In this document: one piece after another, positions 17,021 through 50,820 of the stretch
Layout: the number at the start of each line of letters is the position of its first letter
Numbering within the stretch: position 1 is the stretch's first letter
Assembly (NCBI RefSeq): GCF_014174375.1
Contig: NZ_JABEQE010000003.1
Coordinates: forward strand, 1 to 64,000
Length of the DNA stretch: 64,000 nt
Source: Gluconacetobacter asukensis
GTDB taxonomy: Bacteria; Pseudomonadota; Alphaproteobacteria; Acetobacterales; Acetobacteraceae
Direction: 5' to 3'
Notes under the pieces: model-generated
What the model was told of the DNA's origin: nothing
Databases searched by the model: none
What the model saw: the letters and a program-made list of their open reading frames with translations, nothing else
Translations under genes and position numbers: made by a program

Positions 17021-18469
17021 TTATGCCATCGCGCCGGATTGCTTTTGAGGGATGGCGGAATGCGCTGCGAGAGCGCGCAGGTCGGTGCATATGCGGCGGA
17101 TCGGGTCCGACCAGTCGAGGGGCGCGGCCTGCTGGTACAGGCGCAGGCTGTCATACCAGGGGGAATCGGTGCGGCCGGAAAGCCAGCGCCAGCACTGATC
17201 GTAGCGGGATAGCATCCAGACCGGTTTCCCCAGCCCGGCCGCCACATGAGCCGTCGAGGTATCGACGGCGATCACCAGATCCAGCGCCGCAACCAGCGCG
17301 GCGGTATCGCTGAAATCCCGCAACAGGGGCGTGTCGTCGATTAGATTCATCCCGGCGGGCGGGGTGCGGGCCTGGGAGGATTTTTCGCCGATCTGGAGAC
17401 TGTAGAACAGAATGTCCGCATCTATGTCGGCAAGGGGCGCGAAGGTCGAAAGATCGGTCGAACGCCGCCGGTTGGCAAGCTCGGCCGCTTGGATTTCGGG
17501 ATGTGGAGCGCCCGCCCATACGAGGCCGACACGAAGGGCGGGCCGCCCACTCGCTGCAACATCCTGATGGAGCATGTCGTGCCAGAATGATGTTTTTTGG
17601 GCGTCGGCCCGAAGGAAGCCACCGGCGGAAGGAATGGTTGCCAGGGTTGTACCCAGCGCGAAAGGGAGGCTAAGAACCGGGCATTGAAGATCGTGCGGCG
17701 GTACCTCGTCATCTTCAGAAAAAAAAATCTGTTCGGGAAAAGATTGCCGGAGCATGGTCAGCAATTCCTTTCTTGCCCGGACGATCACGCGCCCTCCCCG
17801 TTGCGCGGCAAATGGAATAAAACGGGAGAACTGGATCATGTCACCAAAACCACCCTCGGTATGAATCATGAGGGTAAGGTCATGGAAATGCTCGCCTTTC
17901 CATTGTGGCACGGTCATGCCGTAGCTGCGGGAACTGTGCGTTGTCCAACGCCACTCATATTCCCGAAACCCCGCCAGATAATCGCCATGTGCCAGTAGCG
18001 AGATGGCATAGTTGGTGCGTGTCTTCGCGTTGTCGGGTGTGAGTTGTACGGCGATCTGATGAAATTTCTGGGCCAGTTCATGCGCGCCGCGATGATCAAG
18101 GACCACACCGAGATTGCTTAGGGCCAGGGCATGCGCAGGGCTCTGTTGCAGACAGTTTCTGTAGGCTGTGGTCGCGTCATCATAGCGTTGCAGGTGCAGC
18201 AACGTGTTGCCCAGATTGGACCATGCATCGGGCTGGGTCGGGTCGAGCGCAAGAGAACGAGAGAGGACAGCGTACGCATCGTCAAAACGGCTGAACTGGT
18301 TTAACAATCCGCCGTAATTGCTCAAGGTTATGGGATCGTCTGGGGTGGATTCCAGTCGGGTCCGATAAACGGCTGCGGCTTCATTCAGGCGTCCGGCGAG
18401 TTGGAGTGCTTCGCCACTTTCTTGGGGGTGAAGCGTCTGCTCCGCGGAAGGCCCAATTGGCTGGGACAT
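17021..18469 (-). CDS. TPR protein with GT9-like glycosyltransferase domain (first of two)
   Basis: ATG at 18469 is preferred over the upstream frame, whose extra 45 residues look random. The 482-residue product has N-terminal TPR repeats (about residues 15-190), then a domain resembling ADP-heptose/GT9-type glycosyltransferases. Key segments are GLVWAG, a central RRS, and the end signature VIAVDTSTAHVAAGLGKPVW followed by CWRW. It is clearly a paralogue of the protein at 40993-42546. It is the last gene after flgK and flgL on this strand but separated from flgL by about 280 bases. A role in flagellin glycosylation is inferred from the company it keeps; donor and acceptor are unknown. Confidence 0.75.
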   Translation of the reverse strand: MSQPIGPSAEQTLHPQESGEALQLAGRLNEAAAVYRTRLESTPDDPITLSNYGGLLNQFSRFDDAYAVLSRSLALDPTQPDAWSNLGNTLLHLQRYDDATTAYRNCLQQSPAHALALSNLGVVLDHRGAHELAQKFHQIAVQLTPDNAKTRTNYAISLLAHGDYLAGFREYEWRWTTHSSRSYGMTVPQWKGEHFHDLTLMIHTEGGFGDMIQFSRFIPFAAQRGGRVIVRARKELLTMLRQSFPEQIFFSEDDEVPPHDLQCPVLSLPFALGTTLATIPSAGGFLRADAQKTSFWHDMLHQDVAASGRPALRVGLVWAGAPHPEIQAAELANRRRSTDLSTFAPLADIDADILFYSLQIGEKSSQARTPPAGMNLIDDTPLLRDFSDTAALVAALDLVIAVDTSTAHVAAGLGKPVWMLSRYDQCWRWLSGRTDSPWYDSLRLYQQAAPLDWSDPIRRICTDLRALAAHSAIPQKQSGAMA

Positions 18470-18731
18470 GACGTGCAAACCCTTATCGTCTTGTGAAGGG
18501 GGAAAACCGGCCACGGATATGCAGGATTTTCCAGAGGGCCGAGTGCGCAGCACGATATCCGCGGGGCAGTGGACAGGATGTGCACCGGGGCGATGAAAGT
18601 CCACTGATTACCGGACGTGTCCGGAAAGCATTTTTATGGGCGGGGCCTGAGAGCAATCTGCCACGTACCTGGAAGGAAGAGCATGATATCGGGCGCGCCT
18701 TGATGGCAGATAGGAGCTTGCGAGAAAGGAC

Positions 18732-33602: not shown

Positions 33603-34367
33603 TTACAGGCCCTTGTGATGGACCATGCCGACGCGGCAGGACGGGTCTCCGCGATAGGCTGCGCGTCCTGCATGCGTCAAGGAAAGAGAGGTGTCGAGCC
33701 AGACTTCTCCGCCGAGTTCGCGCCAGCGCCGGCAGAAGGTGAAATCCTCGCTGAGGTAGGTTCCCGTCTCGGGATCAATGCTGGCGTCGAACAGGGCATG
33801 GTGCAGGCTGCCGTCTCCGCTGCCCGCGGTGTCGATCCGGCGGTATGCGGTTTCGGGATAGTGCTTGATCATGCGGGCGATCGCCTTCCGGCTGATCATC
33901 ATGAAGCCGGTACCGGCGTAATGCGTCCGGATGAGCGGCCCTTTTTCCCATGTCTCGTGCATGGCATCGGTCTCTCCGACATAGCGAAGGGAGGCCGATT
34001 CCTGTGATTCGCCGCGCAGGATGTTTTCTTGCGTGCCTTTGTCCCAGAACCGATCCTTGATCGGGTACATGCCCGCGATCAGGTCCTTGTCAGCCGCGAG
34101 AAGGCGCGCCGGCGCTTCTGCGGCGAATCCGATATCGGCATCGATAAAAAGCAGATGCGAGGCATCGGACCGCGTGAAAAACTGATGAACCAGGGTATTG
34201 CGTGCCCGGCTGATCATCGCATCGTCGCCGAGCAGGGAGAGAGTCATCGGAGTCCGCATGACGCCGGTGCAGGCGATAACGGATTCCATGTATTCCTGCG
34301 TTACCAGACCGCCGAAACAAGGCGTGGCAATGAATATCTTTGCGGTCTGTTGTTCTGTCTGTTCCAT
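33603..34367 (-). CDS. Glycosyltransferase-like protein within the flagellar operon
   Basis: ATG at 34367 follows AGGAAAGCG; 254 residues. KIFIATPCFGG at the start, SRARNTLVHQFF, and LLFIDADIGF with a DxD motif (Asp76, Asp78) mark a GT-A-fold glycosyltransferase of the family 2 or ANP1-like type. TYLSEDFTFCRRWRELGGEVWLD is a typical acceptor-domain segment. It is soluble, with no membrane helix. It sits between fliJ and motB, an unusual place, which points to modification of a flagellar protein; the substrate is inferred, not shown. Confidence 0.75.
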   Translation of the reverse strand: MEQTEQQTAKIFIATPCFGGLVTQEYMESVIACTGVMRTPMTLSLLGDDAMISRARNTLVHQFFTRSDASHLLFIDADIGFAAEAPARLLAADKDLIAGMYPIKDRFWDKGTQENILRGESQESASLRYVGETDAMHETWEKGPLIRTHYAGTGFMMISRKAIARMIKHYPETAYRRIDTAGSGDGSLHHALFDASIDPETGTYLSEDFTFCRRWRELGGEVWLDTSLSLTHAGRAAYRGDPSCRVGMVHHKGL

Positions 34368-34532
34368 GCGCTTTCCTGGTCGCTTATGTCCACGGGGATG
34401 ATCGGATCGCATCAGGCACGATCACGCGCCGACCTCGATAAATAGCGATAGCGGGGGCATTCCACTTACTCAAGGATGAAACATGGCAAAACCGACGATC
34501 GTCTTGTTGGAATGATGCATGAACATTCAAAG

Positions 34533-34958
34533 TCAACCTGAGGCCATGCGAACGCGCCGCGACAAATCGTCGATTTCGGCTAGTTCGCGCCGGTTGCGGA
34601 TCTCTTTTTCCTCTTCCACCCGACGGTCCAGAATGGAGGTGGCCGCCTTCAGGTCCGCGTTGGCCTGCATGAGGGTTTCGCGCGCCTGGTCGGAGGCACG
34701 GCCGGCGACATGCAGGGCGCTCCGGGCGCGTTCAACAGCTTCCTGTCCATAAGGCAGCCACTGACGGAAATCGTCCAGCGACGCGTGCCCCGACGTGGCT
34801 TCCAGTCGTTCGGTTTCGATCGCTGCCTGGTTGCTTTCCACCTGGCCGCGTGCCGCGTGCTCTCTGGCCAGCGCCTCGGCCATGATCGCCTTTGCCTGGT
34901 CGACCTTTGTCTTGTGAAGGCGGATCAGGGACCGTAATGCGCGTGTCCGGGAATTCAT
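34533..34958 (-). CDS. fliJ: Flagellar export chaperone FliJ
   Basis: A 141-residue, highly charged, all-helical coiled-coil protein (LIRLHKTKVDQAKAIMAEALAREHAA and following heptads). That matches FliJ, the stalk-like partner of the FliI ATPase. Its start overlaps the fliI stop by four bases (ATGA), so translation is coupled. Sequence conservation in FliJ is weak, so the call rests on size, coiled-coil nature and position. Confidence 0.85.
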   Translation of the reverse strand: MNSRTRALRSLIRLHKTKVDQAKAIMAEALAREHAARGQVESNQAAIETERLEATSGHASLDDFRQWLPYGQEAVERARSALHVAGRASDQARETLMQANADLKAATSILDRRVEEEKEIRNRRELAEIDDLSRRVRMASG

Positions 34959-36412
34959 CGCGATGTTCCGGTGGTCGAGAGCGCGCCACGCAGGGCATCG
35001 AAGCTTTCGGCGATCGTCGCGCTTTCATCGCGTGACTGCTTCAGGATGTTTTCGATTGCGGGCGCGACGCGGATGGCCCTGTCGGTTACGGCGTCGTTTC
35101 CAGCCCGGTAGGCGCCCAGGCGAACCATGTCCTGAATATCGTCCCAGGTTGAAAGATCGGTGCGCGCTTCCAGGGCCAGGGCGTTTTCCTCCGCGGCGTT
35201 GCAGCCGGGAACCGTGCGCGAGAGAGAGCGGAGGACATTAACGGCCGGATATCGTCCACTTTCGGCGATTCGTCGTTCCAGTACGACATGCCCGTCGAGA
35301 ATGCCTCGGACAGCGTCAGCGACGGGTTCGTTATGATCGTCGCCTTCGACGAGGACTGAGAACATGGCGGTGATCTGGCCGGCCCTGCCGTCCGGGCCGG
35401 CTAGGCCGGGGCCCGCCCGTTCCAGCAGGCGTGGCAGTTCCGCGAAGACGCTGGGCGGATAGCCCCGGGTCGCGGGTGGTTCGCCGGAAGACAGGCCGAT
35501 CTCTCGCAGGGCCTGGCAAAAGCGGGTGACGCTGTCCATGAGCAGCAGGACCGATTTGCCTTGATCTCTGAAATATTCCGCCACTGCCATGGCCGAATAG
35601 GCGGCTTCCCGGCGCATCAGGGGCGAGGTGTCGGAGGTGGCGACCACGACGACCGATTTGGCCAAGCCTTCGGGGCCCAGATCGTCTTCCACGAACTCGC
35701 GGACTTCCCGGCCTCGTTCCCCGACAAGCGCGATCACCGCGACGTCGCAGTCGGTATTGCGTGCCAACATGCCCATGAGCGTGGATTTTCCGACGCCGGA
35801 ACCAGCGAACAAGCCGAGCCTCTGGCCCTCTCGGCATGTTGTGAACAGGTTGAGCACCCGCACGCCCAGATCGATGCGTGGCCCGAGGCGGGCACGCAGT
35901 CCTGCTTCCGGGGGAGGAGCATGCAGCCGGCATGGTTCCCCGCCCGGGGGCAGTGGGCCCTTGCCGTCGACGGGACGCCCCATCGGGTCGATGACACGTC
36001 CTTGCCATAAGGGATTGACGACCAGCGTGCCGCCCGCCCGGCGCCTTCTCTGCTCCTGGTCGTACAGCCGGAATGTCGCACGGCAGCCCGATCCTATGCC
36101 CGCCAACGCCCCGAATGGCATGGCAATGGCCGTGTCCCCCCGGAACGCGACGATTTCGGCATCTGTCTCACGTCCGTCCAGTCCGAAAATACTAACCCTG
36201 TCCCCGACTCCGGTGAAGTCGCGCATGCCGCTGAGGGAGACGGAGAGACCGGTCAGTCCGGTCACGCGGCCTTCCAGCACGCCCACGGGAATATCGTGAA
36301 AGGGACCGGCCACGGCCTTGCGGATTGCATCCAGGGTGCGGACCATTCCGGTGGCAAGCGTATCGTTGTGGGACGCTCTCGCTGTGTCGGTAGTCGATTC
36401 GGCAGGTTGCAT
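34955..36412 (-). CDS. fliI: Flagellum-specific ATPase FliI
   Basis: A 485-residue ATPase that energises flagellar protein export with FliH and FliJ. The Walker A motif GSGVGKST lies at 204-211 and the Walker B strand VLLLMDS ends at Asp293. IDPMGRPVDGKGPLP and GERGREVREFVEDDLG are type III ATPase signatures. The length is normal, with a family-typical N-terminal beta domain. fliH was not found beside it. It follows the hybrid DUF1217 gene by 134 bases and is coupled to fliJ. Confidence 0.95.
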   Translation of the reverse strand: MQPAESTTDTARASHNDTLATGMVRTLDAIRKAVAGPFHDIPVGVLEGRVTGLTGLSVSLSGMRDFTGVGDRVSIFGLDGRETDAEIVAFRGDTAIAMPFGALAGIGSGCRATFRLYDQEQRRRRAGGTLVVNPLWQGRVIDPMGRPVDGKGPLPPGGEPCRLHAPPPEAGLRARLGPRIDLGVRVLNLFTTCREGQRLGLFAGSGVGKSTLMGMLARNTDCDVAVIALVGERGREVREFVEDDLGPEGLAKSVVVVATSDTSPLMRREAAYSAMAVAEYFRDQGKSVLLLMDSVTRFCQALREIGLSSGEPPATRGYPPSVFAELPRLLERAGPGLAGPDGRAGQITAMFSVLVEGDDHNEPVADAVRGILDGHVVLERRIAESGRYPAVNVLRSLSRTVPGCNAAEENALALEARTDLSTWDDIQDMVRLGAYRAGNDAVTDRAIRVAPAIENILKQSRDESATIAESFDALRGALSTTGTSR

Positions 36413-36546: not shown

Positions 36547-38325
36547 TTAAAACATGCCGGAATAAAGATTTCCGCTCGACGAGGATGACGAGGTGTTGAC
36601 ACCGAAGAGTGCGGCAATGCCCTCGTTGCTCGAACCGCCACCATACAGATCCATCATGGTTGCCGGCTTGTCCGGCGTCTGCGGAGTGATCTGAAGCATG
36701 GCCAGATAACGTTCTGCATATTGCTGGATCTGCATTGGAGTCTTCAACTTGGTGAAATCCACCTTGCTTTTCAGCATCCGGACCTGCTGGTCGTAATCCA
36801 GTGTGCCGAATGTTGACGGATCGTAGCCGGAGACCGTTTCCGCGACTTTCAGCAAGATGGGATCAGACATCAATTGCGCCAGGGAGGTAATGCCGCTCAT
36901 CTTGCGTGTGAAGTAGAGGGCGTTACCGACTCCGTTGTCCTGGAAATCGTTGTTATTCTCGTACTGACTCAATTCGAACTGCGACACGACGTCGCTCATG
37001 TTGACCTTGGTCACAGTGTTCGTGACTTTGCTGTCAGTCGTCAGGGTTGAATCCTGGGTCAGTGTCGAGGTCGAAAGATTCGGTGCCTGAACATTGACAG
37101 TGTAGGTGACGCCGTTCATCTGCGCCTGCAGAGCGGGAATATCGTGAGAATACTGCCCGTTGACTTTCAGAAGATTGCCGCCGCTGTCGAATGAAGTCGT
37201 AAATGTCGTGCTGGTAACCTGCGCCCCGTAGGGATCGATGATATAAGCCTGCCAGGTCGACGGCGAGGAGGAGTCCTGAACCCATTTGACGGACAGCGTG
37301 GCCCGGTTGGCGGCGGTGACGCCGTTCGCGTCGTCCGATGCTTCGTTGGGGTCGAATGGTGCAGTGACGTAAGTCTGGTTCGTTCCCGACAGGGTACCCA
37401 GCGTAATGGAGGGAAGTGTCAGGGTGGTGCTGGAACCAGACGATGACGTCAGGCTGGCGACCTGGCTTGTACTGATGGCGCTGGAGGTGCTGTACGGCGC
37501 CATGGTGACACCGCTTGTTCCCCCGAGCGTCCCGAGATCGAGGCTGACGGATTGATGTGTGGTGGTGCTGCCGTCAGATTGGATGATATTCAGGGTAATG
37601 GGCAACGACACAGCGCTTCCCGTTCCGCCTGAGGTTACGGCTTTGCCGGTCGACATGTCGGTAGCGGAAGCCAGGGTACCGTCTTGGTTGAAGACGACCT
37701 GATAGGCGTTCGTATCGATTGTGGCATTGCCGCCCGCGTCATAGGCGTTGACGGTCCAGACCAGTGGGTTGCTAGAATCCTGGGTCCATTTAAGGGCCAC
37801 CTGATGGGCGTCGGAATTCGAATCATACGTCGTGACAGGGGCCGTCGTATAGGTCTGGCCGGTCGCGTCGGCAGAGGGAAGAGTGGCGTTTACCGAGATG
37901 GTCGTCGTCGCGCTGTAGGTCTGGCTCATTACGGCGGAGGCTGCGTCGGGAGCAAAGGGCGACACGGAGGATGTGCCTTTGTTCTGCCCCCACATCTTGA
38001 AGGCATCGGCAAAGGCCAACCATGCTGCGTTATTGGATGATTTGGCGAGGGACTTGGATGAGGTCGGGTCCTGCGTCAACAAGTCCTTGATGATGGCCGT
38101 TGCGTTGGAAAGGGAACTAAGCCCATAGGCCCCGAGTACCACCTGCAGGACCGAATAATCCTTCAGGAGTCCATCAACCGACGTAATCGACGCCGCGTCC
38201 TTTTCGAACTTTGCGACTTCCTGCTTGGTTGTGGCGTCGGTCTTCGCGTAGGTCGCTGAGGCCGTCGCCTCGTTCTTGATCGCGGAAATATACGTCGAAA
38301 TCGGAGAGGCGTTGGAGATGGACAT
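36547..38325 (-). CDS. DUF1217 flagellar protein with hook-like inserted domains
   Basis: A 592-residue protein starting eight bases after AAGGA. Residues about 10-112 match the N-terminal part of DUF1217 (FEKDAASITSVDGLLKDY, LGAYGL, AWLAFADAF). Residues about 448-560 match the rest (ALYFTRKMSGITSLAQLMSDPILLKV). Between them lie two Thr/Ser-rich beta domains. The first (about 155-280) resembles the D2 region of the FlgE encoded at 49492-50820: SLDLGTLGGTSG here against NLDLGTIGGTTG there, and a WTQDSSNPLVWTVNAYDAGG-type repeat. The second (about 315-420) repeats the TYVTAPF/VKWVQDSSSPSTWQAYI pattern. DUF1217 proteins in Alphaproteobacteria are linked to flagella; the inserts suggest a surface-exposed axial or hook-associated structure. 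Confidence 0.75.
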   Translation of the reverse strand: MSISNASPISTYISAIKNEATASATYAKTDATTKQEVAKFEKDAASITSVDGLLKDYSVLQVVLGAYGLSSLSNATAIIKDLLTQDPTSSKSLAKSSNNAAWLAFADAFKMWGQNKGTSSVSPFAPDAASAVMSQTYSATTTISVNATLPSADATGQTYTTAPVTTYDSNSDAHQVALKWTQDSSNPLVWTVNAYDAGGNATIDTNAYQVVFNQDGTLASATDMSTGKAVTSGGTGSAVSLPITLNIIQSDGSTTTHQSVSLDLGTLGGTSGVTMAPYSTSSAISTSQVASLTSSSGSSTTLTLPSITLGTLSGTNQTYVTAPFDPNEASDDANGVTAANRATLSVKWVQDSSSPSTWQAYIIDPYGAQVTSTTFTTSFDSGGNLLKVNGQYSHDIPALQAQMNGVTYTVNVQAPNLSTSTLTQDSTLTTDSKVTNTVTKVNMSDVVSQFELSQYENNNDFQDNGVGNALYFTRKMSGITSLAQLMSDPILLKVAETVSGYDPSTFGTLDYDQQVRMLKSKVDFTKLKTPMQIQQYAERYLAMLQITPQTPDKPATMMDLYGGGSSNEGIAALFGVNTSSSSSSGNLYSGMF

Positions 38326-38523: not shown

Positions 38524-40713
38524 TCATGTAATGGTCGCGATCGTCTTGATTCGGGCGCGTGGATATATTTCGGATTGCGAAAGGACCGACACGCTCGGCC
38601 GGACACGTTCCACGATCGAACGCATGGAGTCCCGAACCGGCGTCGAAACGACAATGACCGGTACTTCGCCGGTGGACGAGACGGTATTGAAGACCTCTCG
38701 CAGTCGCGCGACGAAACGGTTCAACAGGGAGGGCGGCATGGCCAGGCGCCGTTCCTCGCCCTGTCCCGCGATGTGGTTCATGAATTCCGCCTCCCATTCC
38801 GGCGACAGGGTGATCATCGGAATGTAGCCGCCCGGTCCTTCGAGCGTGCTGCAGATCTGCCGGGAGAGGCGGACGCGCACATGGTTGGTCAGGTTCTGTA
38901 TACCGCGCAGGCCGAGGCCGCTGCCTTCCTGGATGCTTTCCAGGATGGTCGGAAGGTCGCGGATCGAAATCCGTTCGGCCAGCAGCGATTGCAGGACACG
39001 CTGGACGGTGCTGAGCGTGACCTGGGAGGGAATCAGGTCGTTGACGAGTTTCTGCTGCTCGCGGGGCAGGTCGTCGAGAAGCGACTGGGTGGCGACATAA
39101 GTCAGAAGGTCGGGAAGGTTCTGCCTGACCAGTTCGCTGAGATGCGTCACGATGACACTGGCGGGGTCGACCACGGTGCATTTCAAGGCAATGGCCTTGG
39201 CCTTGAGGGAAGGGTCGATCCATACGGCGGGCAGGCCGAACGCGGGTTCGGTCGCCTTGTCGCCGGCAAGGGGAGGTGTGCCGCCGGACGGGCTCATGGC
39301 CATCAGCTTGCCGGGCTTCGCCTCACCTGATCCGATTTCGATCTCCTTGAGCTTGATGATGTATTTGTCCGACGGAAGCAGGATATTGTCCTGTATCCTG
39401 ATGGGCGGCGTCACGAAGCCCATTTCGGTCGCAATTGCCCTGCGCAGCGCCTTGATCTGCTCGGTGAGTTGGGAATTCTCGCCGCTGGTCAACGGCAGCA
39501 GGCCGAAGCCAAGTTCGAGACGCAGCAGGTCGAGCTTGAGAACGTCGGAAATGGGAGCCGTCGTCGGGGCTGGCGTGACTTCGGTCACGTCTCCGTCACT
39601 ATCCTTGGTGGGCGTTTTGTGGCGCCACCAGGCCCCGGCGCCGGCCAGGGCTGCAATGGTCAGGAAGGGAAAGGCCGGCAAGCCGGGCAGCAGCGCGAAG
39701 CAGGTTGCCAGCAACGCGGCCATGGCCATCGGCTTGGGATTGCCGCCCAACTGGCGAACCAGGGTGACGTCGGCGGACCCGTCCGTACCGCCCTTCGTGA
39801 CGACGATGCCGGCTGCAGTCGAGACCAGGAGGGCTGGAATCTGCGATACGAGCCCATCGCCCACGGTCAGCGTCGTGAAGGTGCTGGCGGCCTCGTTCAC
39901 GGGCATGCCGTGGCGCAGCACGCCGATGGCCAGTCCGCCGACGATATTGATGCCTGTAATGATGATCGCCGCGATCGCATCGCCGCGCACGAATTTGGCG
40001 GCGCCGTCCATGGCGCCATAGAACGCGCTTTCTTCTTCCAGTTCCTTGCGCTTCAGGCGTGCCGTCCGGTCATTGATCGCGCCGGAGGAGAGTTCGGCGT
40101 CGATCGCCATCTGCTTGCCCGGCATGGCGTCGAGGAAGAAGCGCGCCGCGACTTCCGCGATACGGCCGGAGCCCTTGGTGATGACCATGAAATTCACCAC
40201 AAGCAGGATGCAGAACACGATCCCGCCGATGACAACGTCCCCTCCCATCAGGAAGCCGCCGAATGCAGCCACCACATGGCCGGCGGCATATGCGCCTTCA
40301 TTGCCGTGGCTGAGGATCAGGCGCGTGGTTGCGATTTCGAGTGCCAGCCGCAGGAGGGTCGTCAACAGGAGAAGGGTGGGAAAGGAGGTGAACTCGACCG
40401 GCTTCTCAAGGAACAGCGACACCATGAGAACCAGCGCGGAGGCAGTGATCGACAGCGACAACCCCATGTCGAGGATAAAGGTTGGTAGCGGGACAATAAG
40501 GATGGATAGAAGCAGCAGGACACCGATCGCGAGGCCGATGTCCGTTCCCGGGATCAGTGATCGCCAGGAAAGCGAATTCAAGCCGCCGCGCAGCACATTG
40601 TTCGAAAGCGCCATGCCGCGGGAAAGCGACGGGAACAGCCGCGCGGGGCGGTTCCCGCCAGTCAGCTTGCCGTCGCCGGGCTCTGCGATCGTGCTACCAT
40701 TGGCGGGGTCCAA
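38524..40713 (-). CDS. flhA: Flagellar export gate protein FlhA (TTG start)
   Basis: A 729-residue protein: about eight membrane segments (residues 55-350) and a large cytoplasmic domain that docks export substrates. The FHIPEP-family segment ALEIATTRLIL, PGKQMAIDAELSSGAI and GDAIAAIIITGINIVGG is well conserved. The start is TTG at 40713, after AAAGGAAAAG; the internal ATG at 40614 has no ribosome-binding site. It is transcribed away from the TPR/glycosyltransferase gene, and a sigma-54-like element lies about 157 bases upstream. Confidence 0.94.
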   Translation of the reverse strand: MDPANGSTIAEPGDGKLTGGNRPARLFPSLSRGMALSNNVLRGGLNSLSWRSLIPGTDIGLAIGVLLLLSILIVPLPTFILDMGLSLSITASALVLMVSLFLEKPVEFTSFPTLLLLTTLLRLALEIATTRLILSHGNEGAYAAGHVVAAFGGFLMGGDVVIGGIVFCILLVVNFMVITKGSGRIAEVAARFFLDAMPGKQMAIDAELSSGAINDRTARLKRKELEEESAFYGAMDGAAKFVRGDAIAAIIITGINIVGGLAIGVLRHGMPVNEAASTFTTLTVGDGLVSQIPALLVSTAAGIVVTKGGTDGSADVTLVRQLGGNPKPMAMAALLATCFALLPGLPAFPFLTIAALAGAGAWWRHKTPTKDSDGDVTEVTPAPTTAPISDVLKLDLLRLELGFGLLPLTSGENSQLTEQIKALRRAIATEMGFVTPPIRIQDNILLPSDKYIIKLKEIEIGSGEAKPGKLMAMSPSGGTPPLAGDKATEPAFGLPAVWIDPSLKAKAIALKCTVVDPASVIVTHLSELVRQNLPDLLTYVATQSLLDDLPREQQKLVNDLIPSQVTLSTVQRVLQSLLAERISIRDLPTILESIQEGSGLGLRGIQNLTNHVRVRLSRQICSTLEGPGGYIPMITLSPEWEAEFMNHIAGQGEERRLAMPPSLLNRFVARLREVFNTVSSTGEVPVIVVSTPVRDSMRSIVERVRPSVSVLSQSEIYPRARIKTIATIT

Positions 40714-40992
40714 GATGCCACTTTTCCTTTCGTGTGCCGGCTGTGGTTATGACGATCTCGGCATGATCGCCATGGCCGGGAAGCCTGGGCGGCTGTTCTG
40801 TGGCATGTAGTGGCGCAGACCCGGTTTCTGGGGCCGATAAGTACCGCTATAGTCGGCTTTGAGCAAGGCGCGAAAATAGTGCCGGCGAGGAATTGAGGAC
40901 TCTTTCGGCCGATATAGGCTCCGGCGGCGTGAGGTAGGGGCTGGGGTATGCGGCTCCGGACAAGGCAAGGTGGATTTGTGACGGAAGTAGAC
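40714..40992. other. Divergent promoter region, flhA and TPR/glycosyltransferase gene
   Basis: No gene is seen in this spacer. It should contain promoters in both directions. The best candidate is a sigma-54-like element at 40870-40884 facing flhA. Confidence 0.5.
40870..40884 (-). promoter_or_regulatory. Sigma-54-like promoter element upstream of flhA
   Basis: Read on the minus strand it is CGGCAC-TATTT-TCGC. Compared with TGGCAC-N5-TTGC, the essential GG and GC pairs and their spacing are kept and two other positions differ. It lies about 157 bases before the flhA start. A near-identical arrangement with TCGC also precedes flgE. Confidence 0.35.
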
Positions 40993-42546
40993 ATGAAGGT
41001 ATGCACGGAGGTCGGCGCGGGTGAAGCCGGGCGGCTCCTGACGGTCGCGTTCGCGAAGGAAAGCCTGCTGCAGTCGCCGACGCCGGCCAATCTGATCGAG
41101 TTCTGCGATATGCTGGCGGCCCAGGGGCAACTCGTCGAGGTCTTCCGCCTGGTCCTCGAGATGACGTCGCTGCGCATGGATGACTGGCAGCTCAGCCTGG
41201 CCGGCGCGACGGTGATCCTGCGCTACAGTTCCAATTACGATATTGTTGAAACATTATTGCGTAATGTGCTCCGATGTGAACCGGACAATGTCGCTGCGCA
41301 GGCGTTCCTGGCGCATATCCGAGTGGCCTCTGGAGATGTCGTCGGAGGGTGCGCCCTGTTCTCCGACATGATGCAGCGCTACCCGGCCGAGCATGCAAAT
41401 ATATGCGAATATATATCGATGTCTCTTCTCGAAGCCGGGTATCCGGCGGAAGCGCTGAAAATCCTCCTGTCTCATCTCCAGAGCGGGAATATGACCGCAG
41501 CACTTCTGAACAATGTGGGGTGCGCCCTGGAACGGCTCAATCGCTCCCCTGAAGCTCTGCCCTGGTATGAAAAGGCCCTGGCGCTTGCGCCGTCCTCGCC
41601 CGCGATCAGCTTCGGCTATTCCTGCACGCTGCTGAAGGCCGGGAGACTGGGTGAGGGATGGGAAGTTTATTGCAAGCGCGACCTGATTGTCAGCGATAAG
41701 TCAGCATGGTTCCTGTCTCTGCCGCGTCTGCGGCCCGGAGATGACGTGTCGGGACGGAAGGTCCTCCTGTTCGACGAACAGGGGCTGGGCGATACGATCC
41801 AGTTCATTCGCTTGGTCCCTTACCTGCTGGAAAGGGGGGCAGAGATCACCGTCGTCGTGCCCGGAACGCTGGTCCGTCTTCTGACCCTGTCTTTCCCGGG
41901 TGTGTCTGTGCGGAATAAGGAGAGTTTTGGCAGGGAGGACGGATATAGCTTCGCCGCACCCATTCCGGACCTGCCCTACATCGCCGGCGTGATGTCGGTA
42001 CGGGATATTCCGGATGGCATTCCGTATCTGCGTGCCGATGACAGGGATGTTGCGCGGTTTGCGTCCCGCTTGCCCGGCCAGCGGCCGCGCGTCGGCCTGG
42101 TCTGGGCGGGTGACCGGAGGACGCAGTCCGAGCACGTGCTTGCGGACAAGCGCCGTTCGGTCACGCTGGCGGACATGGGGAGCGCTCTGACGCCCGTCGA
42201 GGCGACGCTGGTTAGTCTTCAATTTGGTCCGCCGCGCGCGGAAATCGAGGCGTGGCACGGCCAGGCGCTATTCGACCCGATGGGCGATGTCCGGGACATG
42301 GCCGACACGGCCGCGATCGTCAAAAATCTCGACTTGGTCATTTCCGTCGATACGGCGCCGCTGCATCTCGCGGGGGCTCTCGGCTGCCCGGTGTGGCTGG
42401 TCAGCCGTTGGGATGCCTGCTGGCGATGGGGCGATGAAGGAAGGAGTTCTCCCTGGTACCCGAACATGCGCGTGTTCAGGGCGAAGGAGCGGTCGTTCAC
42501 AGCTGTCCTTCAGGAGGTCGGGCTGGCCCTGCGTAACTGGCTATAG
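40993..42546 (+). CDS. TPR protein with GT9-like glycosyltransferase domain (second of two)
   Basis: ATG at 40993 follows CGGAAGTAGAC; GTG at 40978 and ATG at 40948 are alternatives. The 517-residue protein has TPR repeats in the first half (for example NNVGCALERLNRSPEALPWYEKALALAPSS). A C-terminal domain resembling GT9 heptosyltransferases carries GLVWAGDRR, DKRRSVTLADMG and LVISVDTAPLHLAGALGCPVWLVSR, then CWRWGDEGRSSPWYP. It is a paralogue of the protein at 17021-18469, with the same domain order. TPR/glycosyltransferase fusions near flagellar genes in Alphaproteobacteria are thought to glycosylate flagellin. It is transcribed opposite to flhA. Confidence 0.75.
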   Translation: MKVCTEVGAGEAGRLLTVAFAKESLLQSPTPANLIEFCDMLAAQGQLVEVFRLVLEMTSLRMDDWQLSLAGATVILRYSSNYDIVETLLRNVLRCEPDNVAAQAFLAHIRVASGDVVGGCALFSDMMQRYPAEHANICEYISMSLLEAGYPAEALKILLSHLQSGNMTAALLNNVGCALERLNRSPEALPWYEKALALAPSSPAISFGYSCTLLKAGRLGEGWEVYCKRDLIVSDKSAWFLSLPRLRPGDDVSGRKVLLFDEQGLGDTIQFIRLVPYLLERGAEITVVVPGTLVRLLTLSFPGVSVRNKESFGREDGYSFAAPIPDLPYIAGVMSVRDIPDGIPYLRADDRDVARFASRLPGQRPRVGLVWAGDRRTQSEHVLADKRRSVTLADMGSALTPVEATLVSLQFGPPRAEIEAWHGQALFDPMGDVRDMADTAAIVKNLDLVISVDTAPLHLAGALGCPVWLVSRWDACWRWGDEGRSSPWYPNMRVFRAKERSFTAVLQEVGLALRNWL

Positions 42547-49491: not shown

Positions 49492-50820
49492 TTACTGCTT
49501 CATGGCGATCGTGGTCTGCAGCAGCTGGTCTGCGGTCGTGACGATCTTGGTATTGGCGGAGTAGGCCTCCTGCGCGACGATCAGGGCGGACAGATCGCTG
49601 GTCAGATTGGTCGTGGAGGACTCGACATACCCGACCGACAGCGTGCCCGTGCCATTTTCCCCGACATTGCCGATTTTGGCGTTGCCGGATGATGCCGTGG
49701 CCGTATAGGCCTGACCGTCGACGGCATTCAGTCCGTCGACGTTGGCGAAATTCGCCATGGCGATCTTGCCCACGAGCTGGGTGTCGCCGTTATCGAAAAT
49801 GGCCATGATAGAGCCGTCGCTCTGGACCGACACGCCCTCGTAGGTGCCGCTGGTCACGCTATCGCTGGCCAGTGACGGAGTCGCTGTGGGGGTGGTGCCG
49901 GTCGTCATGCCGGTTGTGCCGCCGATTGTGCCCAGGTCAAGATTGACGGTCTGCTGCGAGCCATCCTGATACGACACTGTGATCGGAATGTTGGCGGTGG
50001 CACCGAACAAAGTCGAGCCGACGGGTGTGGCGCCGTTCGTGATGGAGGCGATGGAGCCGTTGGCATCGAAGGTTACGGTATATGGACCGGCATTGGTCAG
50101 CGTAGCGGTGCCAGCGCCCGCAACGGCTGTACTCTGGGCTACCACATTCCAGGTATTGGGGGCGGTATTCGTCCATTGAAGTTGAACGCCGCCCGAATTG
50201 TTGGTCGGGTTGGCGCTGTCGTAACTGCCATCGTACACCGTGGCTGCGGCGGTGGTAACCGTGTCGCCTACGGCGGCAGTGGATGACAGCGTCCCGGTTG
50301 TCGAAAGGGTGGTGCTCTGCGTGGGACGGAAAGCGACATTCGCGACGTTGAGCTGGGTCAGGTTCGTGTTGAGCGCCCCGCTCGGATCGACCATATAGCC
50401 ATCAAGATAGTAGCCGCTGGTGTTGACCAGGTAGCCGGTCTTGTTTTCATAAAATTCACCGTTTCGGGTGTAATACTGCGTGTTCTGGAACTGGGTCTGG
50501 GCCGCTGTGGACGCGCCGGTTTCCTTGGACACGACATACAGGCCGTTGCCGGAGATCGATGTCGCCAGGCTGTCCGCGCTGCTGGCTGCCGTACCCTGGG
50601 TGTCCACATGCTGGATGGTGACGGCGGAGACGGAGTCCGAAATATCGGCCGATGCCGCGTTTCCGACGAGCGAACCGGCAACGAAATCCTGGAATGCCGT
50701 CGTGGTGGCCTTGTAGCCGACCGTCTGGCTGTTGGCGATGTTGTTGCTGAGGTTCGTAAATGCGGTCGACTGGGCGTTGATACCGCTGACAGCCGTGGTA
50801 AGGGCATTGAAAACTGACAT
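49492..50820 (-). CDS. flgE: Flagellar hook protein FlgE
   Basis: ATG at 50820 gives 442 residues beginning MSVFNALTTAVSGINAQSTAFTNLSNNIAN, the family N-terminus; 16 upstream codons in frame do not fit. It polymerises to form the hook. The middle is a Thr/Ser/Gly-rich beta domain, including NLDLGTIGGTTG near residues 293-304. The C-terminus (LTSDLSALIVAQEAYSANTKIVTTADQLLQTTI) is the usual paired helix. It stands alone, away from flgD and fliK. A sigma-54-like element lies about 180 bases upstream. Confidence 0.93.
   Translation of the reverse strand: MSVFNALTTAVSGINAQSTAFTNLSNNIANSQTVGYKATTTAFQDFVAGSLVGNAASADISDSVSAVTIQHVDTQGTAASSADSLATSISGNGLYVVSKETGASTAAQTQFQNTQYYTRNGEFYENKTGYLVNTSGYYLDGYMVDPSGALNTNLTQLNVANVAFRPTQSTTLSTTGTLSSTAAVGDTVTTAAATVYDGSYDSANPTNNSGGVQLQWTNTAPNTWNVVAQSTAVAGAGTATLTNAGPYTVTFDANGSIASITNGATPVGSTLFGATANIPITVSYQDGSQQTVNLDLGTIGGTTGMTTGTTPTATPSLASDSVTSGTYEGVSVQSDGSIMAIFDNGDTQLVGKIAMANFANVDGLNAVDGQAYTATASSGNAKIGNVGENGTGTLSVGYVESSTTNLTSDLSALIVAQEAYSANTKIVTTADQLLQTTIAMKQ

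Follow-up and report, generated by a model that had tools for sequence, protein, structure and literature searches.

How did a hook domain come to lie within a flagellar protein that is not a hook protein, and what might it do there? This question is raised by a gene of Gluconacetobacter asukensis that lies among flagellar genes, between flhA and fliI, in a window of 64,000 nucleotides (contig NZ_JABEQE010000003.1, positions 1–64,000; Table 1). The gene encodes a protein of the DUF1217 family, in which the sequence-only reading had seen an insert of ~330 residues between the two halves of the domain. The insert is present, with a length of about 311 residues (131–441) rather than ~330. An orthologue in G. 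aggeris/tumulicola is 92% identical to the window protein, and the adjacency of the DUF1217 gene and fliI is kept in most of the relatives' loci examined. In insert-bearing genomes (the window and loci L090–L092 and L096–L099), flhA is directly upstream of the DUF1217 gene, and in the insert-less relatives examined (L093–L095 and L101) the flagellar cluster is rearranged.

Table 1. Positions in the window of the DUF1217 gene, its parts, its neighbors and flgE.
Feature	Coordinates	Strand or gene	Basis or remark
DUF1217 flagellar protein with FlgE D2 insert	36547..38325	-	ATG start, 592-amino acid ORF
N-terminal helical half of DUF1217, residues 1–118	37972..38325	-	HMM positions 4–134
Insert unit A, residues 131–300, FlgE D2 homologue	37426..37935	-	Pfam FlgE_D2 and hhalign
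SLDLGTLGGTSG motif, residues 261–272 of the DUF1217 ORF, in common with FlgE	37510..37545	-	direct reading
Insert unit B, residues 301–441, diverged D2-like, including FlgE-type exit linker	37003..37425	-	hhalign to FlgE second unit
C-terminal helical half of DUF1217, residues 442–592	36547..37002	-	Pfam best stretch 434–532; 2o8s match 437–572
flhA	38524..40713	-	upstream neighbor, same direction as DUF1217 gene; orthologue homology and gene order
fliI	34955..36412	-	downstream neighbor of DUF1217 gene; gene order
flgE, 442 amino acids, reduced one-unit D2 region	49495..50820	-	comparison with relatives' FlgE
NLDLGTIGGTTG, counterpart of SLDLGTLGGTSG, residues 293–304 of window FlgE	49909-49944	flgE	direct reading

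The window protein belongs to DUF1217 (PF06748) by Pfam, with a total of 125 bits against a gathering cut-off of 22.9. The match is in two separated stretches, the best at residues 434–532, which lie either side of the insert, as had been proposed for the N- and C-terminal parts. Both halves flank the insert in order (model positions 4–134 and 123–258, numbered on a family model built from uninterrupted relatives), and in the predicted structure the N-terminal half has helices H8–17 to H110–114. By sequence, 2o8s (AGR_C_984 of Agrobacterium) is the one relative with a solved structure, and both halves match it. A fold search with the helical core likewise returned 2o8s only and showed no likeness to axial proteins; the core is therefore not a disguised axial protein, and a FliD- or FlgK-like identity by fold was rejected. 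As in the rest of the family, the window protein has both helical halves and a flagellar gene neighborhood. However, most family members are ~260–300 amino acids in length and insert-free, whereas the window protein has two hook D2 units in its inter-lobe loop. A PHROGs search gave no match, and a literature search for AGR_C_984/2O8S found nothing. SMc03023 occurs in one transcriptome paper, and in the literature searched two papers name DUF1217, each of them in passing.

The insert is homologous to the D2 region of the hook protein FlgE. Pfam places FlgE_D2 (PF07559) at residues 149–258 of the full-length protein with 30.6 bits against a cut-off of 22.7; unit A by itself scores 31.9 bits, and unit B by itself 16 bits, which is below the cut-off. 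NCBIfam FlgE models match residues 131–310 at 4.6e-10, far below these models' own whole-protein cut-offs. By BLASTP, the insert is related to FlgE of genome G060 (45% over 310 amino acids, E 2e-45), to FlgE of G. dulcium (41% over 322 amino acids, E 3e-51), and to FlgE of the window (37% over 124 amino acids, E 6e-8). The alignment with FlgE is co-linear through both units and includes the entry and exit linkers, the latter reading LST..LTSDS..SGTYxG in FlgE and LST..LTTDS..NTVTKV in the DUF1217 protein. This co-linearity and the match to relatives' FlgE rule out a chance similarity of motifs. The sequence first noticed as common to the insert and the window FlgE does occur in both (SLDLGTLGGTSG and NLDLGTIGGTTG), but the window FlgE is not the closest relative of the insert because it is a reduced, one-unit FlgE.

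The two units are also related to each other. The hhalign probability is 100 between DUF-borne and FlgE-borne unit A and 99.4 between the corresponding unit B pair; unit A against unit B gives 95.5 in the DUF1217 protein and 98.2 in FlgE, and the units are therefore mutually homologous. The second half of the insert is thus a diverged homologue of the first, which agrees with the repeat seen earlier. The rod and hook domains that form the N- and C-terminal parts of FlgE (Flg_bb_rod, Flg_bbr_C, and D1) are absent from the DUF1217 protein and are all found by Pfam in true FlgE. The insert resembles FlgE D2 (PF07559; 6ndx, 6ndw, and 5ay6) in sequence, two-unit order, linkers, and fold, but its host is without the D0/D1 parts and is not a hook protein by membership.

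The AlphaFold model of the window protein has a mean pLDDT of 82, with the blocks of the insert mostly at 80–95 and in β-structure. Its best matches in the PDB by Foldseek are FlgE D2 of Treponema denticola (6ndx, 6ndt, and 6ndw; E 5.7e-8 to 1.4e-6, target TM 0.55–0.68), and the DUF1217 structure 2o8s is also matched (1e-3). The insert is thus predicted with confidence as β-structure resembling FlgE D2, although the alignment used for the model held FlgE rows over the insert, and the fold match is for this reason not independent of the sequence homology.

The inserted region is wholly absent from most DUF1217 homologues. Within Gluconacetobacter, DUF1217 is uninterrupted in three genomes (G123, G174, and G215), and ~310–320 inserted residues are found in G000, G247, G277, G. 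tumulicola, G. aggeris, G. dulcium, G. liquefaciens, and G. sacchari. The same two-unit insert occurs in four genomes of a second, sister genus. The largest array seen is in G. takamatsuzukensis (G042; L092:2195-5236), which has five tandem FlgE_D2 stretches in an ORF of ~1,014–1,036 amino acids. Insert-bearing orthologues in several other Gluconacetobacter genomes and in the four of the sister genus rule out a gene fusion or assembly artefact.

In trees of the DUF1217 backbone (94/96) and of FliI (97/100), the hosts with an insert group as a single clade; the FlgE backbone tree leaves this clade unresolved. The DUF-borne modules likewise form one clade apart from the FlgE-borne modules, with 100/100 for both units, and repeated gene conversion with each genome's own FlgE was rejected on this ground. 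The junction falls in a loop whose sequence in uninterrupted relatives is PFTSDTISSIV. The simplest account is a single transfer that was then inherited vertically. A complete two-unit D2 module of flgE, from the same flagellar gene set, would have entered the inter-lobe loop of DUF1217 once, and homology, boundaries, and trees indicate that this almost certainly took place in an ancestor common to the sister genus and the G. liquefaciens-type Gluconacetobacter. The anatomy and origin of the insert are secure. Sequence, trees, fold, and the co-linear boundaries together lend strong support to the proposal that a D2-type domain of the hook entered a flagellar protein unrelated to it.

FlgE itself varies in its number of D2 units. 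Two units are present in G123, G174, G060, G277, G300, G301, the sister genus, and three further genera, and one unit in the window species, G247, G299, G042, and more distant genera. The window FlgE has one unit as compared to two in close relatives, and the second appears to have been lost. These counts bear on the possibility that the DUF1217 protein is a structural component or coat of the hook, with D2 units co-packing with FlgE D2 along the hook surface and perhaps compensating for the loss of a FlgE unit. Such packing would suit units that are co-linear with the FlgE outer module, and a one-unit FlgE does accompany a DUF1217 protein with two or five units in the window species and in G. 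takamatsuzukensis. However, G. dulcium, G. liquefaciens, G. sacchari, and the sister genus carry the module in both proteins, so that there is no consistent trade-off, and the DUF1217 core is missing the FlgE D0/D1 parts. We consider a hook coat very unlikely. A reciprocal trade of the module between FlgE and DUF1217 is not supported, as several species have it in both.

The acceptor loop has received other sequences as well. Five further classes of insert occur in the same DUF1217 loop in other genera of the Acetobacteraceae, mostly at model positions 112–126 (secondary structure in these was judged by eye). These are a β-rich module of ~345 amino acids with no clear Pfam family (L106, L107, L108, and L125, in genera g56, g71, g49, and g86); a β-unit of ~130 amino acids in one to three copies; ALTTAQ-type repeats (L122–L124, genus g95); a helical insert of ~500 amino acids; and an additional copy of DUF1217, found in G061 at the loop or close to it. 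The genus g95 loci also have FlgE-matching ORFs in open frames of up to 870 amino acids. Near model position 210 there is another insertion site, occupied by apparently helical inserts of ~500–700 amino acids in G315, G396, and G407 (L153, L154, and L155); in G315, two DUF1217 genes interrupted near this position are side by side.

In a genome of a different alphaproteobacterial family (G346), FlgE_D2 repeats (32.2 bits, two stretches) precede the C-terminal half of DUF1217, together with a stretch resembling the FlgE D2–D1 junction; this ORF runs off the end of its contig in a genome that is 75% complete, and its family and order comprise two genomes only. The D2 boundaries differ from those in Gluconacetobacter, and a separate recruitment is therefore likely. 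Large outer domains in a permissive site are also known from FlgE and flagellin, as in the D3–D4 domains of Campylobacter jejuni FlgE (PMC5069557). Unlike that variation, the case described here places a named hook module in a protein that is not homologous and whose helical core is unrelated.

The number of unrelated inserts in this loop raises the possibility that the loop is merely permissive and that the D2 array is cargo of little function, brought in by ectopic recombination between neighboring flagellar genes. Close congeners do without any insert, and FlgE freely gains and loses D2 units. However, the insert is under purifying selection (dN/dS 0.05–0.42), with unit B (0.05–0.22) about as constrained as the core; it has been retained since before the two genera split, and the array has grown to five units in one species. 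A cargo of little function is on these grounds improbable.

As to the role of the host, gene order provides a link to published genetics. In three other alphaproteobacterial families, DUF1217 genes are found together with flaF and flbT and with either fliC or the hook genes flgD-flgE-flgK-flgL (several of these neighbors were named from sequence by eye), and plasmids of Salipiger and Cereibacter have the annotated order flagellin-flaF-flbT-DUF1217. The fla1 flagella of Rhodobacterales have an assembly factor, CP1, encoded in the order fliC-flaF-flbT-CP1, including on a 124 kb plasmid of C. sphaeroides (PMC12363192). On the 124,316-bp plasmid of C. sphaeroides 2.4.1, the gene after flbT is annotated as DUF1217 and matches the family model. 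DUF1217 is therefore exactly at the position of CP1, from which we infer that CP1 is a DUF1217 protein. CP1 has no insert, and its sequence similarity to the window protein is very low. Its authors report it as exclusive to Rhodobacterales fla1, with no homologues seen outside Rhodobacterales (PMC12363192); the wider DUF1217 family is at odds with this, unless remote homologues escaped their search.

A CP1 mutant of Phaeobacter inhibens is immotile and has no flagella by electron microscopy, while most flagellar proteins, including FliC, are still released (PMC12363192). Secreted FliC in the absence of flagella fits the loss of a late assembly step. Since gene order identifies DUF1217 with CP1 (PGA1_c23640), for which the phenotype is published, DUF1217 is probably a late flagellar assembly factor. 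The need for CP1 in flagellum formation was shown in P. inhibens only (PMC12363192). Among the 37 proteins listed by a near-saturating screen for motility in Agrobacterium, none belongs to DUF1217 (PMC9812332), although 2o8s comes from this genus. Names in the record vary: a DUF1217-like gene of Marinovum algicola (CP010860.1, 66099-66881) is annotated as FlgF, probably a misannotation, and a Liberibacter paper terms DUF1217 "similar to FlgF."

The Phaeobacter flagellar system with CP1 has no FliD, and FliD_C was found in none of 36 Acetobacteraceae tested, with no match anywhere in genome G000. The window protein is not itself a FliD filament cap by homology, as it has no FliD_C match and its core fold gives only 2o8s. 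In a class-wide sample, FlgI is present in 12 of 13 DUF1217 genomes, and FliD_C in only one of 12 flagellated DUF1217 genomes, that one having two FlgI genes (Fisher p 0.027, uncorrected for phylogeny). Mutual exclusion of FliD and DUF1217 was rejected; many flagellated genomes have neither. A speculative and rather doubtful extension is that DUF1217 proteins are the missing tip factors of FliD-less alphaproteobacterial flagella, with an exchangeable outer loop face refilled by D2, repeat, or other modules; if so, DUF1217 at the growing end would let secreted flagellin polymerise.

The location of the protein was considered from its composition. Cys is absent from host and insert, Arg is nearly so, and Ser and Thr are abundant, as in FlgE, FlgD, FlgK, and FlgL; FliI, FliM, and the Che proteins differ in this respect. 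However, Cys is also missing from a FliJ-like ORF and from MotB, so that the cluster includes non-axial proteins without Cys, and several insert-bearing DUF1217 relatives elsewhere in the family are Arg-rich. Composition therefore supports export without proving it. Genes resembling TPR and glycosyltransferase genes by eye occur amid the flagellar genes (17021-18604, 33603-34412, and 40948-42546), and their products may glycosylate flagellar proteins.

Hook domains that have been inserted are most easily understood in an extracellular position. The flagellar type III apparatus would export the DUF1217 protein, which would then act at the growing distal end or the hook–filament junction, or close by. 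The helical core would perform the shared function, and the D2 units would make up an outer domain, specific to the species, beside the FlgE D2 shell. We advance this export, site, and division of labor tentatively, at somewhat less than even confidence. The new axial or hook-coating component envisaged in the sequence-only reading is not demonstrated: the composition fits export, but the CP1 data speak for a late need only, and CP1 was not detected in the exoproteome (PMC12363192).

The authors suggested a chaperone (PMC12363192), and DUF1217 could work in the cytoplasm as a chaperone for late substrates or as a factor that orders their export, its D2 units serving as a built-in FlgE mimic or a substrate-recognition arm. 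The neighboring flaF and flbT do encode cytosolic flagellin regulators. However, a D2 fold normally has its function outside the cell, the composition of insert and host is of the exported type, and large unrelated inserts in one loop resemble outer-domain variation more than a binding interface. We regard a chaperone as rather unlikely. The preferred explanation, comprising a single D2 transfer into a late assembly factor that is exported and bears an outer domain, stands as a whole in about even balance. Its late-assembly role rests on gene order and on published genetics from another order, and the site of action and function of the D2 units we infer.

Outer-domain variation within FlgE and flagellin was known already. 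New here is the movement of a hook module into a non-homologous flagellar protein, as a single event that can be reconstructed and that was followed by changes in copy number. The finding points to DUF1217 as a general domain-acceptor protein, whose loop is a domain-swapping site in a little-studied part of the flagellum. Through the link to CP1, it also suggests a late assembly role for DUF1217 in FliD-less flagella, and filament capping in such flagella becomes directly testable.
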